Shown here: piece after piece, positions 26,176 to 31,585 of the stretch
Position numbering within the stretch: the first letter of the stretch is position 1
How the letters are laid out: the number at the start of each line of letters is the position of its first letter
From: Chryseobacterium candidae
Lineage (GTDB): Bacteria; Bacteroidota; Bacteroidia; Flavobacteriales; Weeksellaceae
Assembly: GCF_004916905.1 (NCBI RefSeq)
Contig: NZ_SDLV01000019.1
Location: 62,001-126,000 of the forward strand
Length of the DNA stretch: 64,000 nt
Direction: 5' to 3'
Program-made: the position numbers and the translations under genes
The notes under the pieces: model-generated
Seen by the model: the letters and a program-made list of their open reading frames with translations, nothing else
What the model was told of the DNA's origin: nothing
Database searches by the model: none

Positions 26176-27156
26176 ATGAATGTACAGCTGGACCCACAAT
26201 CTAAGACTGAAAAGAATGCTGATCATTTCCGTTCAGATATTTTGAACGGACTTAAAAATACTCCTAAAAAATTATCTTCAAAATATTTTTACGATAAGAT
26301 AGGAGATCATCTTTTTCAGCAAATTATGGATATGCCTTCCTATTATCTGACCCGTTGTGAACTGGATATTTTCAAAAATAAAACAGATGAACTTATTGAT
26401 CTCCTTATTCCCGGAAATGAATCTTTTGACCTGATTGAATTAGGGGCAGGAGACGCCATGAAATCCACCTATTTACTTGAAAAGCTGATCAGCAAAGGGG
26501 TTAACTTCACTTATATGCCGATTGACATCTCAGGAAATATTCTTTCCATACTTCATAAAAAACTGAGCAGCCAGTTTCCGGAAATCAAAATAACCTGTCT
26601 GGAAGGAGATTATTTTGAAATGCTTCAAAAAGCAGCTTCATTATCTGACCGGAGAAAAGTTGTGTTATTTCTGGGAAGTAATATCGGAAATATGACTCCG
26701 GAAGAGGCCGAAGATTTCTGTCTGCATCTGAATAAAAATTTATCTCAAAAAGATCGTGTCCTGATAGGTTTTGATCTAAAGAAAAATCCGCATATTATCC
26801 TGAATGCCTACAATGATAAAGAAGGAATTACAGCTTCTTTTAACCTTAATCTTCTTACCCGCATTAACAATGAACTGGGCGGTAATTTTGATCTGAAACA
26901 ATTTCAACATTACCAGACTTATGATCCCGTTACCGGAGCCTGCAGAAGTTTTCTGATAAGCCTTATCAGACAGGATGTGACTATTGACAATACCAGGATT
27001 TCTTTTGAAGAAAACGAATTGATCGATATGGAAATTTCCCAAAAATTTTCTTCCGAAAAAATCAGGGAATTAGCCAAAAAAACAGGTTTTACCATCACAG
27101 GAGAGATCAATGATTCTAAAAAATGGTTTGTAGATACCATCTGGCAGGTACAATAA
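26176..27156 (+). CDS. egtD: L-histidine N-alpha-methyltransferase (EgtD)
   Basis: A 326-residue SAM-dependent methyltransferase of the EgtD family. The N-terminus carries the family signature KLSSKYFYD, then MPSYYLTRCE. The SAM-binding loop is ELGAGDAMKS near residue 87, and LFLGSNIGN near residue 163 is typical. EgtD trimethylates histidine to hercynine, the first step of ergothioneine synthesis. egtB follows after 89 bp and two transporter genes after that, so the four probably form one unit. The length matches the family. Confidence 0.92.
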   Translation: MNVQLDPQSKTEKNADHFRSDILNGLKNTPKKLSSKYFYDKIGDHLFQQIMDMPSYYLTRCELDIFKNKTDELIDLLIPGNESFDLIELGAGDAMKSTYLLEKLISKGVNFTYMPIDISGNILSILHKKLSSQFPEIKITCLEGDYFEMLQKAASLSDRRKVVLFLGSNIGNMTPEEAEDFCLHLNKNLSQKDRVLIGFDLKKNPHIILNAYNDKEGITASFNLNLLTRINNELGGNFDLKQFQHYQTYDPVTGACRSFLISLIRQDVTIDNTRISFEENELIDMEISQKFSSEKIRELAKKTGFTITGEINDSKKWFVDTIWQVQ

Positions 27157-27245: not shown

Positions 27246-28415
27246 ATGACCCCAGAGATCATCACAAAAGATATTACTAAAAAGTATATGGACATCCGCA
27301 GACGTTCTGAAGAAATCTGTGCCCCGCTGGAAATAGAAGATTATGTGGTACAGCCGATTGTAGATGTAAGCCCTCCGAAATGGCATCTTGGCCATACCAC
27401 ATGGTTTTTTGAAACCTTCATTCTTACCCAGCATTTTCCGGATTACAAGGTTTTTGATCCGCAGTATAATTTTGTTTTCAACAGCTACTATGAGACTATC
27501 GGAGCGCGGGTGATCCGGACCGACCGCGGAAACCTCAGCCGTCCTTCTGTTTCAGAGGTGTATCAATATCGAAAATATGTAGATGAGCATATGGAAGCTT
27601 TTCTTGAAAGCTCATTTCTGACAGAAGCCCTTAAACCGCTTTTGGAACTGGGGCTTAACCATGAGCAGCAGCATCAGGAGTTATTAATTACCGATATTAA
27701 ATATATTTTGGGACATAATCCGCTTTTCCCAGCCTATACAAAAGAAAAATCCGGACAAATGAACTCCGGAGATCTGGAAATGCTGAGGTTTTCTGAAGGC
27801 ATCTATGAAATTGGATTTAAAGGAGATGGATTTTGTTTTGATAATGAACTGGGAAGGCATAAAGTATATCTTACAGACTTTGAAATTGCCAGCCGGCTTG
27901 TTACCAATAGTGAATATTTAGAATTTATGAAAGCAGGCGGATATGAAGATTTCAGATACTGGCATGCTGAAGGATGGGACTGGGTGAAACAGAATTCCGC
28001 AAAATCTCCACTGTACTGGCATTATATTGAAGACCAATGGATGTATTACACACTCCATGGCTTACAGGAAATAGACCCTCATGCCCCATTGCGCCACATC
28101 AATTTCTATGAAGCATCTGCTTTTGCCTCCTGGAAAGGAATGCGTCTGCCCACTGAAGAAGAATGGGAAGCGGCTTCGGATTATTTTGACTGGGGAACAC
28201 GCTGGGAATGGACAAATTCTGCTTATCTGCCCTACCCTCATTTTAAGAAAGAAGCAGGAGCTGTAGGTGAGTACAACGGAAAATTCATGATCAATCAAAT
28301 GGTTTTGAGAGGGGCTTCAGAAGCTACTCCCCCGGGACACAGCAGAAATACATACCGTAATTTTTTTCAGCCTGATTTAAAATGGCAGTTCACAGGAATA
28401 AGACTTGCCCAGTAA
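27246..28415 (+). CDS. egtB: Ergothioneine biosynthesis sulfoxide synthase (EgtB)
   Basis: A 389-residue protein with an N-terminal DinB-like domain and a C-terminal formylglycine-enzyme-like (FGE-sulfatase) domain, the EgtB layout. The iron-binding histidines are visible as HLGH near residue 50 and HEQQH (His139, His143). The C-terminal domain has RLPTEEEWEAAS and ends GIRLAQ. EgtB joins hercynine to a sulfur donor using oxygen. No egtC or egtA is nearby, so use of cysteine directly with a lyase encoded elsewhere is plausible, but this is inference. The next gene's ATG follows after 10 bp. Confidence 0.92.
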   Translation: MTPEIITKDITKKYMDIRRRSEEICAPLEIEDYVVQPIVDVSPPKWHLGHTTWFFETFILTQHFPDYKVFDPQYNFVFNSYYETIGARVIRTDRGNLSRPSVSEVYQYRKYVDEHMEAFLESSFLTEALKPLLELGLNHEQQHQELLITDIKYILGHNPLFPAYTKEKSGQMNSGDLEMLRFSEGIYEIGFKGDGFCFDNELGRHKVYLTDFEIASRLVTNSEYLEFMKAGGYEDFRYWHAEGWDWVKQNSAKSPLYWHYIEDQWMYYTLHGLQEIDPHAPLRHINFYEASAFASWKGMRLPTEEEWEAASDYFDWGTRWEWTNSAYLPYPHFKKEAGAVGEYNGKFMINQMVLRGASEATPPGHSRNTYRNFFQPDLKWQFTGIRLAQ

Positions 28416-28425
28416 TTTTTCACCG

Positions 28426-29346
28426 ATGATCACAGTAGAATCCATTTCAAAGAGCTTCAACGGAAAAAAAGCAGTAGATCAAATTTCTTTTCAGGCACTT
28501 GATCAGGAGATCCTTGTTCTTTTAGGAACCAGCGGGTGCGGGAAAACGACTACGCTTAAGATGATCAACCGTCTCATAGAAGCAGATTCCGGAAATATTT
28601 TCATAGATGGCAAAAATATCCGTGATCAGAAAGCCGAGGAACTGAGAAGGGGAATTGGTTTTGTCATGCAACACTCGGGACTATTTCCCCATTATACCAT
28701 TCAGCAGAATATTGCGGTAGTTCCTGAGCTATTGCAATGGGACAAAAAGAAAACAGAAAGAAAAACATATGAGCTTTTGGCCAAGCTTCACCTTTCTGAA
28801 GAGATACTTTCACGATTTCCTCATGAATTAAGCGGCGGACAGCAGCAACGGGCAGGCATTGCCAGAGCACTGATTGCAGACAATCCTGTTTTGCTGATGG
28901 ACGAACCTTTCGGAGCACTCGATAATATTACCAGGGCTGATATTCATTCGGAATTTAAATCGTTGGAAGAACTTAAAAACAAAACCATCATATTGGTTAC
29001 CCATGATGTACAGGAAGCCTTTGAACTGGGCCACCGGATATGTCTGATGGATCAGGGAAAAATTGTACAGATGGGTACTCCCAGGGAAATGCTTTACCAT
29101 CCTGCAACCCATTTTGTGCGCAATTTTTTTGCTGAAAACAGGCTTTTACTGGAATATAAGGTAACGGCTCTACATCATATCAGCCCATTTCTCCCTTCGG
29201 AAAATTCATACTTAAGGCCATACAGTACATCCAATACCAGTGTGTGGGATATTTTACAGCAATTGAGTTCTGATCACCAAAACGCTGAGGTTTACGAGCA
29301 ACTGGTCAGAGCGTTTAATCAGTATAGAAAATCACAGATGGTATGA
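28426..29346 (+). CDS. egtV: ABC importer ATPase, EgtV/OpuCA-like
   Basis: The ATG at 28426 gives 306 residues (MITVESISKSF). The ABC motifs are complete: Walker A GTSGCGKTT, signature LSGGQQQR, Walker B LLMDEPFGALD and the H-loop VTHD. The first 240 residues resemble glycine-betaine/choline-type ATPases (OpuCA, ProV). The C-terminal extension is short and lacks recognisable CBS domains. The last four bases overlap the permease gene (ATGA). Position after egtD-egtB suggests ergothioneine as substrate, but a quaternary-amine osmolyte remains the alternative. Confidence 0.8.
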   Translation: MITVESISKSFNGKKAVDQISFQALDQEILVLLGTSGCGKTTTLKMINRLIEADSGNIFIDGKNIRDQKAEELRRGIGFVMQHSGLFPHYTIQQNIAVVPELLQWDKKKTERKTYELLAKLHLSEEILSRFPHELSGGQQQRAGIARALIADNPVLLMDEPFGALDNITRADIHSEFKSLEELKNKTIILVTHDVQEAFELGHRICLMDQGKIVQMGTPREMLYHPATHFVRNFFAENRLLLEYKVTALHHISPFLPSENSYLRPYSTSNTSVWDILQQLSSDHQNAEVYEQLVRAFNQYRKSQMV

Positions 29347-30911
29347 CGCAGCAACAGAGTTTTTGGCAATTTATTGCTGAACAGCAGGAAAAGCTCACCA
29401 CCCAGATCATTCAGCATCTCGGGCTTACGTTTTTGTCTTTGCTTTTGGCCATCCTTGTTGGAGTGCCTTTAGGAATACTTATTTCCAGAAAAAAAAGACT
29501 TTCCAGCCCGGTGCTGGGCATTGCCGGTATTTTACAAACCATTCCGAGTATTGCATTGCTGGGATTTATGATTCCTGTTTTCGGCATTGGTCCGAAGCCA
29601 GCCATTGCTGCTTTATTGATCTATGCTCTTCTTCCCATTATCCGGAATACCTACACTGGAATTATGGGTGTAGATCCCGCAGTGATTGAAGCTGCTAAAG
29701 CAATGGGGATGAACAAAAGCCAGCTTCTTTTTAAGGTAAAACTTCCTTTGGCCATGCCGGTTATCATTGCCGGTATCAGGACTGCTGCTGTAATTAATGT
29801 AGGAGTGGCTACACTGGCTTCTTTTGTGGCAGCAGGTGGTTTGGGAGAGTTTATCTTCGGAGGAATCTCTCTCAACAATACGAATATGATCATGGCTGGA
29901 GCCATTCCGGCAGCATTATTGGCTGTTTTTCTGGATCAGTTCATTGCCATGATCCAGAAATCAGGTTACCGTTTCTTTCAAAAACTGAAATATATTCTTC
30001 CTGTTATCCTTATTATTCTGGGAGCAGGCTATCTTCTGACTTTTGTATCACACCGGACAATTAAGGCGGGTTTTACACCGGAATTTATGGGTAGACAGGA
30101 TGGGGACATCGGGCTTCGTTCAGTATATGGGCTTAACGTTAATCCCCTTGTGGTAAGTGATGCGATTATGTATAAGGCTGCGTATGAGAATGAGCTGGAT
30201 CTTATCAGCGGATATTCTACAGATGGCAGAATCAAAGCTTATGATCTGTATGTGCTGAATGATGATAAAAAAATATTTCCGCCTTATTATGCAGCCCCTA
30301 TCATCAAAACCAAAACGCTGAAAAAATTTCCGGAATTGGAAAAAACCTTAAATCTATTGGCCGGGAAATTCAATGATTCTATCATGACGGATCTGAATTA
30401 CAGAGCTGATCATCTGCATCAGAATCCTGAAAAGATTGCAAAGGACTTTCTCATCAGAAATAATCTGTATAAAAGCCCAGGAAAAGGAAATGCAGGAACT
30501 GTGAGAATTGGTTCAAAAATCTTTGGTGAACAATATATTCTCGCAGAAATGTATACTATGCTTATTGAAGGGTATACAGATTATAAAGTGGAAACCAAAA
30601 CGGGTTTAGGGGGAACAAAAATATGTTTTGATGCCTTAATGAATGATGCCATAGACTTTTATCCTGAATATACGGGAACAGGGCTTCTGGTGCTTTTAAA
30701 ACCTACAGCAGAGACCATCAGAAATGTTTCCAAAAGTCCCGGCATCACCTATCAGTATGTGAATTCAGTGTTTCAAAAACAATATGGGATCCAATGGCTG
30801 AAACCGTTGGGGTTTAACAATGCCTATGCCCTGATGATGCGAAGAAAGCAGGCAGAAGAACTTCATATCAAAAGCATATCTGATCTTGCCCATTATTTTG
30901 ATGGAAACTAA
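29343..30911 (+). CDS. egtU: ABC permease fused to a circularly permuted substrate-binding domain (EgtU-like)
   Basis: A 522-residue fusion. Residues 1-235 are the OpuCB-type permease, with a coupling loop around VIEAAKAMGMNKSQLL and ASFVAAGGLGEF, ending in a transmembrane anchor (219-236). Residues 243-376 correspond to the second lobe plus C-terminal helix of OpuCC/EgtU binding proteins (STYGL-like SVYGLNV, YSTDGRIKAYDL, FFPPY-like IFPPYY, ELNYE-like DLNYRAD). Residues 386-522 correspond to the first lobe, normally N-terminal (VRIGSKIFGEQ, YPEYTGT, WLKPLGFNNAYAL). The lobe order is therefore reversed. A permease-binder fusion matches EgtU. Likely role: ergothioneine uptake. Confidence 0.82.
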   Translation: MTQQQSFWQFIAEQQEKLTTQIIQHLGLTFLSLLLAILVGVPLGILISRKKRLSSPVLGIAGILQTIPSIALLGFMIPVFGIGPKPAIAALLIYALLPIIRNTYTGIMGVDPAVIEAAKAMGMNKSQLLFKVKLPLAMPVIIAGIRTAAVINVGVATLASFVAAGGLGEFIFGGISLNNTNMIMAGAIPAALLAVFLDQFIAMIQKSGYRFFQKLKYILPVILIILGAGYLLTFVSHRTIKAGFTPEFMGRQDGDIGLRSVYGLNVNPLVVSDAIMYKAAYENELDLISGYSTDGRIKAYDLYVLNDDKKIFPPYYAAPIIKTKTLKKFPELEKTLNLLAGKFNDSIMTDLNYRADHLHQNPEKIAKDFLIRNNLYKSPGKGNAGTVRIGSKIFGEQYILAEMYTMLIEGYTDYKVETKTGLGGTKICFDALMNDAIDFYPEYTGTGLLVLLKPTAETIRNVSKSPGITYQYVNSVFQKQYGIQWLKPLGFNNAYALMMRRKQAEELHIKSISDLAHYFDGN

Positions 30912-31039: not shown

Positions 31040-31585
31040 ATGAAGAAATTCCTATTGCTGGCTTCGGCTGTATTTTTTTTACAATCCTGTGTGGTAAGAA
31101 CTGCTACAAAAGTAGTATCAGGTGCAGTAAACTTAAGTTATAAAGCGGTAAAAGGTACAGTAAACGGAATCAGCTGGGCAGTAAGCAAGGCGAAGGGAAA
31201 AATAGATGAAGACCGTTTGGATGGTACGTGGAAAGTAGTGGGTGTTTATCGTGGTTCTTTTGAGGACTTTTCAAAGGATCAGAATCCTGATGGTTCGTTT
31301 ACGTCGGAATGTACGGAAGGTTTTGACCAGATTGTTTTCAAGGCCAAAAAGTCTAAATTCAAGCCGGTGCACTGCAGCACACAGGATGAAGATTGGGTGA
31401 AATATTCTATGGAGTTTGGAAAAAATCCTTCTACCAAAGAAAAGGAAAATTATATAGAATACAATTCCAGCAATTATATTTCTGTGATAGATGTCACCAA
31501 TAAAACAATGGTTCTGGAAGGCAATCTGATGCCTAAATTAGGGTTTTCCGGTGGTAAATTGTATCTCCTTGAGAAAGTAAAATAG
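31040..31585 (+). CDS. Lipoprotein of unknown function, lipocalin-like size
   Basis: A 181-residue protein with a lipoprotein signal (LLASAVFFLQSC, lipobox Cys at residue 17). The mature part begins with a small helix rich in Ala, Val and Lys, then a beta-rich domain (DGTWKVVGVYRGSF, DQIVFKAKKSKFKPV). The DGTWKV start and the overall size are like lipocalin-type domains of Bacteroidota, but the assignment is uncertain. It would be anchored to the periplasmic or outer membrane. A terminator-like hairpin follows. Confidence 0.7.
   Translation: MKKFLLLASAVFFLQSCVVRTATKVVSGAVNLSYKAVKGTVNGISWAVSKAKGKIDEDRLDGTWKVVGVYRGSFEDFSKDQNPDGSFTSECTEGFDQIVFKAKKSKFKPVHCSTQDEDWVKYSMEFGKNPSTKEKENYIEYNSSNYISVIDVTNKTMVLEGNLMPKLGFSGGKLYLLEKVK

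Follow-up and report, generated by a model that had tools for sequence, protein, structure and literature searches.

The window, that is, the whole stretch of 64,000 nucleotides of Chryseobacterium candidae DNA analysed here, carries egtD, egtB, a gene for an ABC ATPase and a permease gene in this order, all on the forward strand. The permease gene is an intact open reading frame of 522 amino acids in which a transmembrane domain (TMD) is fused to a substrate-binding domain (SBD), and its start is overlapped by the stop codon of the ATPase gene over 4 bases (29343-29346), which suggests a coupled operon or translational coupling. The genes and the parts of the fusion protein are as follows:

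26176-27156, forward strand: egtD, L-histidine N-alpha-methyltransferase (Pfam PF10017, 2e-98; NCBIfam TIGR03438, 296.9 bits, cut-off 290.9)
27246-28415, forward strand: egtB, ergothioneine-biosynthesis sulfoxide synthase (NCBIfam TIGR03440, 543.5 bits, cut-off 360; FGE-sulfatase and DinB_2 domains)
28405-29346, forward strand: ABC ATPase, betaine/proline/choline type (PF00005; TTG start at 28405, alternative ATG at 28426)
29343-30911, forward strand: permease fused to a circularly permuted SBD, 522 amino acids
29343-30050, forward strand: TMD, residues 1-236, type I importer permease (PF00528 at residues 40-202; hydropathy)
29967-30044, forward strand: membrane anchor helix, residues 209-234, running straight into D2 (hydropathy peak; helix 209-234 in the AlphaFold2 model)
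30057-30476, forward strand: first piece of the SBD, residues 239-378, equivalent to EgtUC 367-506
30480-30497, forward strand: GKGNAG linker, residues 380-385, bridging the original C-terminus and N-terminus of the SBD
30498-30908, forward strand: second piece of the SBD, residues 386-522, equivalent to about EgtUC 236-366

The EAA-type loop of the TMD lies at about residues 112-134, and the hydropathy peak of the anchor helix (2.36) spans residues 218-236. The first piece of the SBD comprises the core of D2, hinge strand 2 and the C-terminal part of D1, and holds E247, R251, D253, Y291 and Y315. The second piece comprises the N-terminal part of D1, hinge strand 1 and the first beta-alpha unit of D2, and holds K392, F394, T425, Y443, T446, F491, N493 and Y495. 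The short, flexible linker between them differs in sequence and length among homologues. Downstream of the permease gene, the window contains a short lipoprotein-like open reading frame (31040-31585) without a Pfam match. A search of the organism's own genome for EgtE yielded only PLP enzymes below the cut-off (120 bits versus 400).

The permease carries its SBD in circularly permuted order. In a phmmer search against the PDB, the EgtUC chain 9egi is matched in two blocks, its positions 138-276 by residues 239-377 (127.7 bits, i-E 5e-36) and its positions 10-133 by residues 389-516 (70.6 bits, i-E 1e-18). The later half of the chain is thus matched first, and the order of the SBD is swapped relative to EgtUC. 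The Pfam OpuAC profile (PF04069), to which the protein scores 181 bits against a gathering score of 21.2 and is thereby placed in the OpuAC family, agrees with this: its positions 2-111 are matched by residues 386-518, and in a whole-genome scan profile positions 2-113 sit downstream of positions 114-255 in the permease gene. When residues 386-522 were put in front of residues 238-377 and both searches were repeated, phmmer returned a single unbroken stretch over EgtUC 10-275 (212.8 bits) and Pfam a single stretch over positions 2-255 of 257. As the reordered halves yield one full-length match, the SBD is complete, with nothing missing or duplicated: each part occurs once, the order is rotated and the old ends are joined. 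The preliminary description had proposed a permutation in an EgtU-like fusion, and the swapped and reordered matches bear this out. A fold in the order of EgtU, which it had named as a refutation, was also not seen in an AlphaFold2 model built on an alignment of 57 permuted homologues (mean pLDDT 80, most 10-residue blocks of the SBD 85-96). In Foldseek comparisons, about 296 columns of this model align colinearly with B. subtilis OpuAC (TM 0.66-0.71 depending on the target), but only about 140, corresponding to one half, with EgtUC; in the model, the SBD has the connectivity of the OpuAC type.

The position of the cut differs from the reversal of whole lobes that had initially been assumed. 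With the domain limits given for EgtUC (D1, 233-331 and 445-506; D2, 341-432; PMC9732360), the new ends fall within D2, in the loop that follows the 'KTISDL' helix and precedes the strand 'LKAGFT', so that the two pieces do not coincide with the two structural lobes. The permutation leaves D1 continuous and D2 split, with the new ends in a surface loop of D2. The membrane anchor, which leads into D1 in EgtU, here enters D2 after about 5 residues.

The permuted order is not restricted to this genome. Searching 395 Bacteroidota genomes, we found a full-length colinear match in 22, including the genome under study. The order TMD-P2-P1 is present in all 21 loci fetched from these genomes and in all 80 further loci, hence in 101 of 101. 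The 80 loci are the best matches to a permuted query and therefore demonstrate conservation, not frequency; they belong to genera such as Chryseobacterium, Epilithonimonas, Pedobacter, Mucilaginibacter, Chitinophaga, Niastella, Segetibacter, Dyadobacter, Spirosoma, Larkinella, Hymenobacter, Pontibacter and Sphingobacterium, among others. The arrangement is common to many related bacteria of soil and water. This confirms the earlier expectation that other Bacteroidota permeases would share the order, and it also settles the question of a misassembled or degenerate gene. Nothing was found in favour of a misassembly or pseudogene in our genome, and with an open reading frame, near-invariant cage residues and the same order in 101 full-length homologues from other assemblies, such an explanation was rejected and retains a practically negligible probability; the protein is a natural permutant and not an error.

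Within its own genus the gene is patchy, being missing in 5 of 7 sampled genomes with our own counted (G012, G095, G265, G277 and G308), two of which (G012 and G308) have EgtB without it. A second form in Bacteroidota is an SBD of normal order followed by the TMD (P1-P2-TMD; 31 loci, L058-L088). Bacillota and one cyanobacterium have TMD-P1-P2, one gemmatimonadote has P1-P2-TMD, and further loci encode separate standard-order binding proteins. The permuted order was absent from all 12 loci read outside the Bacteroidota, taken from a plasmid collection (L089-L095, L176-L180), a sample on which we do not claim that the order is exclusive to Bacteroidota. In an unrooted SBD tree, the 37 permuted sequences (36 homologues and the window protein) form one group with a branch support of 98/94, and in the likewise unrooted TMD tree this group is broken only by one long-branched cyanobacterial sequence, which makes a single origin the simplest reading. 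On this reading, a single permutation of the SBD took place in the line that led to these Bacteroidota genes. It probably followed the usual route to circular permutants, in which the SBD of a TMD-SBD gene would first have been copied in tandem and the outer half of each copy then trimmed away. An intermediate with a duplicated SBD was not found among the loci examined.

Regarding the binding pocket, the cage and contact residues of the window protein (Y443, Y495, Y291, Y315, N493, K392, T446 and R251) assign it to the SBDs that bind quaternary amines in a Tyr cage (subcluster F-III: AfProX, OpuCC and EgtUC). The cage and the residues contacting carboxylate and imidazole are nearly invariant: in EgtU numbering, T275, N339, Y341 and Y443 are conserved in all 101 homologues, T296, E375, R379 and D381 in 100 each, K242 in 99 and Y419 in 93. 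EgtU itself has been defined by G244 together with a Y-to-F switch (F293 with Y337), and in pneumococcal EgtUC the exchange G244F lowers the affinity for ergothioneine about 100-fold and F293Y about 10-fold (PMC9732360). These determinants are replaced in the window protein by F394, Y443 and F491, which is the pattern of AfProX, and the homologues agree at positions 244, 293 and 337 with F in 97, Y in 101 and F in 101 of 101. The initial designation as EgtU-like consequently stands for the fusion layout, the ATPase partner gene and the cage, and fails for the D1-D2-D1 order and the G244 and switch residues. As this family has F and Y where these residues weaken binding in pneumococcal EgtUC, its cargo could be a different betaine, for example glycine betaine or hercynine. 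Nevertheless, some relatives outside the strict EgtU subcluster aid the uptake of ergothioneine with lower affinity, as described for H. pylori (PMC9732360), and the adjacency of egtB and egtD together with the co-occurrence of EgtB favours ergothioneine.

Both egtB and egtD are adjacent to the permuted transporter in 59 of the 80 best-match loci, while neither lies within the fetched flank in 19, and the association recurs across many genera with differing gene order. EgtB scores above the cut-off in 20 of the 22 genomes with the permuted gene versus 93 of 373 others (Fisher p 5e-10, with related genomes treated as independent), in some cases being encoded elsewhere in the genome. Genomes with the normal-order SBD-TMD form (P1-P2-TMD) show the same trend (EgtB in 25 of 31), indicating that the link belongs to the transporter family and not to the permutation. 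Besides, a gene for an FAD/NAD(P) disulfide reductase of the MerA/glutathione/mycothione reductase superfamily adjoins the transporter in 56 of the 101 permuted loci (for example L039:10523-11977, reverse strand), and similar reductases adjoin EgtU-type genes on three Lactobacillaceae plasmids (L176-L178). We regard this neighbour as a candidate ergothioneine-disulfide reductase; such a reductase was not found within the window.

Taken together, we consider it reasonably probable that the permuted transporter is an ABC importer recovering the antioxidant ergothioneine or a close histidine betaine, with its SBD tethered through the other domain. A general osmoprotectant importer for glycine betaine, choline or carnitine that merely adjoins egtB and egtD would explain the AfProX-like pocket as well as the ATPase, whose best NCBIfam match is the proV subfamily (TIGR01186, 296.7 bits, under the cut-off of 326.6). 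It would not readily account for an egtB/egtD link that is kept across genera in varied gene order, nor for the genomes in which EgtB is present though encoded elsewhere; moreover, our genome already possesses another system, of the glycine betaine type, which comprises a ProX/OpuAC-like binding protein in standard order (L033), a permease and the end of an ATPase gene (G000:C6:113304-114687). We therefore judge this alternative unlikely, although it is the most serious one. Less likely still, the transporter would carry not ergothioneine but an intermediate or precursor of its synthesis, for instance hercynine. The neighbouring egtD, the product of which is hercynine, in the 59 loci mentioned above and the missing EgtU features important for ergothioneine affinity would agree with it, as would two genomes (G364 and G081) that keep an egtD-like gene near the permuted transporter and have no EgtB above the cut-off genome-wide. 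Against this, EgtB accompanies the permuted gene in nearly all genomes, and hercynine is normally an intracellular product. In one of the two loci (L057 of L056 and L057), an open reading frame with a DUF427 domain (PF04248; 6238-6726) follows egtD.

A different type of explanation concerns the architecture itself, as the first piece of one protomer might pair with the second piece of the other in a domain-swapped dimer. The permease is expected to be dimeric and the anchor is short, with about 5 residues from the end of the helix to the first strand. However, the monomer is modelled with the SBD folded as one unit at high pLDDT, and the short linker joins what are both ends of one D1 in standard type II binding proteins, which makes the swapped arrangement very improbable. 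The preferred reading is a self-contained permuted SBD in an importer for ergothioneine or a related histidine betaine.

Permutation has precedents in the OpuAC/ProX superfamily, as the preliminary description had noted, and B. subtilis OpuAC (PDB 2B4L) is one of them: its SBD is also permuted, with its termini in the same loop, which connects the 'SIxDL' helix to the following strand. In a sequence alignment with L033, a relative in standard order, OpuAC is cut between L033 positions 130 and 133, in the loop that is also cut in the window SBD. In contrast to the Tyr cage of the window SBD, B. subtilis OpuAC, which we take to be a lipoprotein, belongs to the Trp-prism glycine betaine family and is not fused to a TMD. 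Common descent of the two permutations was rejected, since the proteins share only about 14% identity in the Foldseek alignment (2b4l) and OpuAC is missing from the phmmer sequence matches; being too distant to be the source, it leaves the two permutations looking independent. Already in 2008, proteins that bind glycine betaine were reported to be related by permutation, with 2B4L, 1R9L and 1SW1 forming one permutation family (PMC2395249).

Among the fused transporters, EgtUBC of S. pneumoniae (SPD_1642; PMC9732360) shares the TMD-SBD fusion and the ATPase partner, and its EgtUC is about 46% identical over the first piece and has the same cage with K242, T275, T296, E375, R379 and D381. It differs in its order TMD-D1-D2-D1, whereas the window SBD is permuted and anchored through D2, and in having G244, F293 and Y337 instead of F, Y and F. 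EgtU organisms scavenge ergothioneine, whereas the permuted gene adjoins biosynthesis genes. L. lactis OpuA (PDB 7AHC/7AHD/3L6G) is likewise a TMD-SBD fusion with a short linker and a homologous TMD, but its SBD gives a single uninterrupted alignment and is in standard order; a shared permutation, considered from a Foldseek match to 7AHD over 538 columns, was dropped for this reason and because of the poor fit (rmsd 9.5). The Tyr cage is shared with A. fulgidus ProX (1SW1), which also has the F/Y/F pattern at the EgtU switch positions (PMC9732360), and with B. subtilis OpuCC, yet both are separate binding proteins of standard order. A membrane-tethered, circularly permuted binding protein is also known from Treponema (MglB-2, Tp0684), and its authors proposed anchoring as a possible reason for the permutation (PMC4990184); MglB-2, however, is a Cluster B sugar-binding lipoprotein of an unrelated family. 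Permuted betaine-binding SBDs and TMD-SBD fusions are thus each known separately, and no report of a permuted EgtU-like fusion, nor of the two features combined in this Tyr-cage group together with egtB and egtD, was found in the literature searched, which covered few subscription journals.

In the proposed mechanism, the ATPase and the TMD-SBD fusion would constitute an importer, the SBD of the Tyr-cage quaternary-amine family closing on its ligand as usual and docking on the TMD dimer, and the likely cargo, ergothioneine or a related histidine betaine, would be recaptured by the cells that produce it. In OpuA, a docked SBD contacts one TMD of the dimer with one lobe and the second TMD with the other, and 11 residues make up the linker (PMC11065425). 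If the permuted transporter is analogous, a tether on D2 instead of D1 would mean either a half-turn of the SBD in its docked position or an exchange of the lobe that lies over its own TMD.

Based on our data, the permuted transporter is a real and conserved structural variant, for which a link to the recovery of ergothioneine is plausible. More tentatively, and with confidence somewhat short of even, we propose that a betaine-binding SBD was permuted a second time, independently and at the same loop, in one clade of Bacteroidota, thereby altering which domain is tied to the channel, and that the transporter, egtB, egtD and in many cases a disulfide reductase make up an uncharacterised module to make, recapture and re-reduce ergothioneine. 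One fold is found tethered to the channel in three ways, by either terminus of D1 or by D2. This amounts to a natural experiment on the docking of a tethered binding domain, in which the effect of the tether position on transport can be compared between homologues. The repeated permutation at one loop suggests a permissive site that may be useful for sensor design. Searches by full-length colinear alignment or by the EgtU signature would miss the permuted transporter, through which bacteria that produce their own ergothioneine may recover it.
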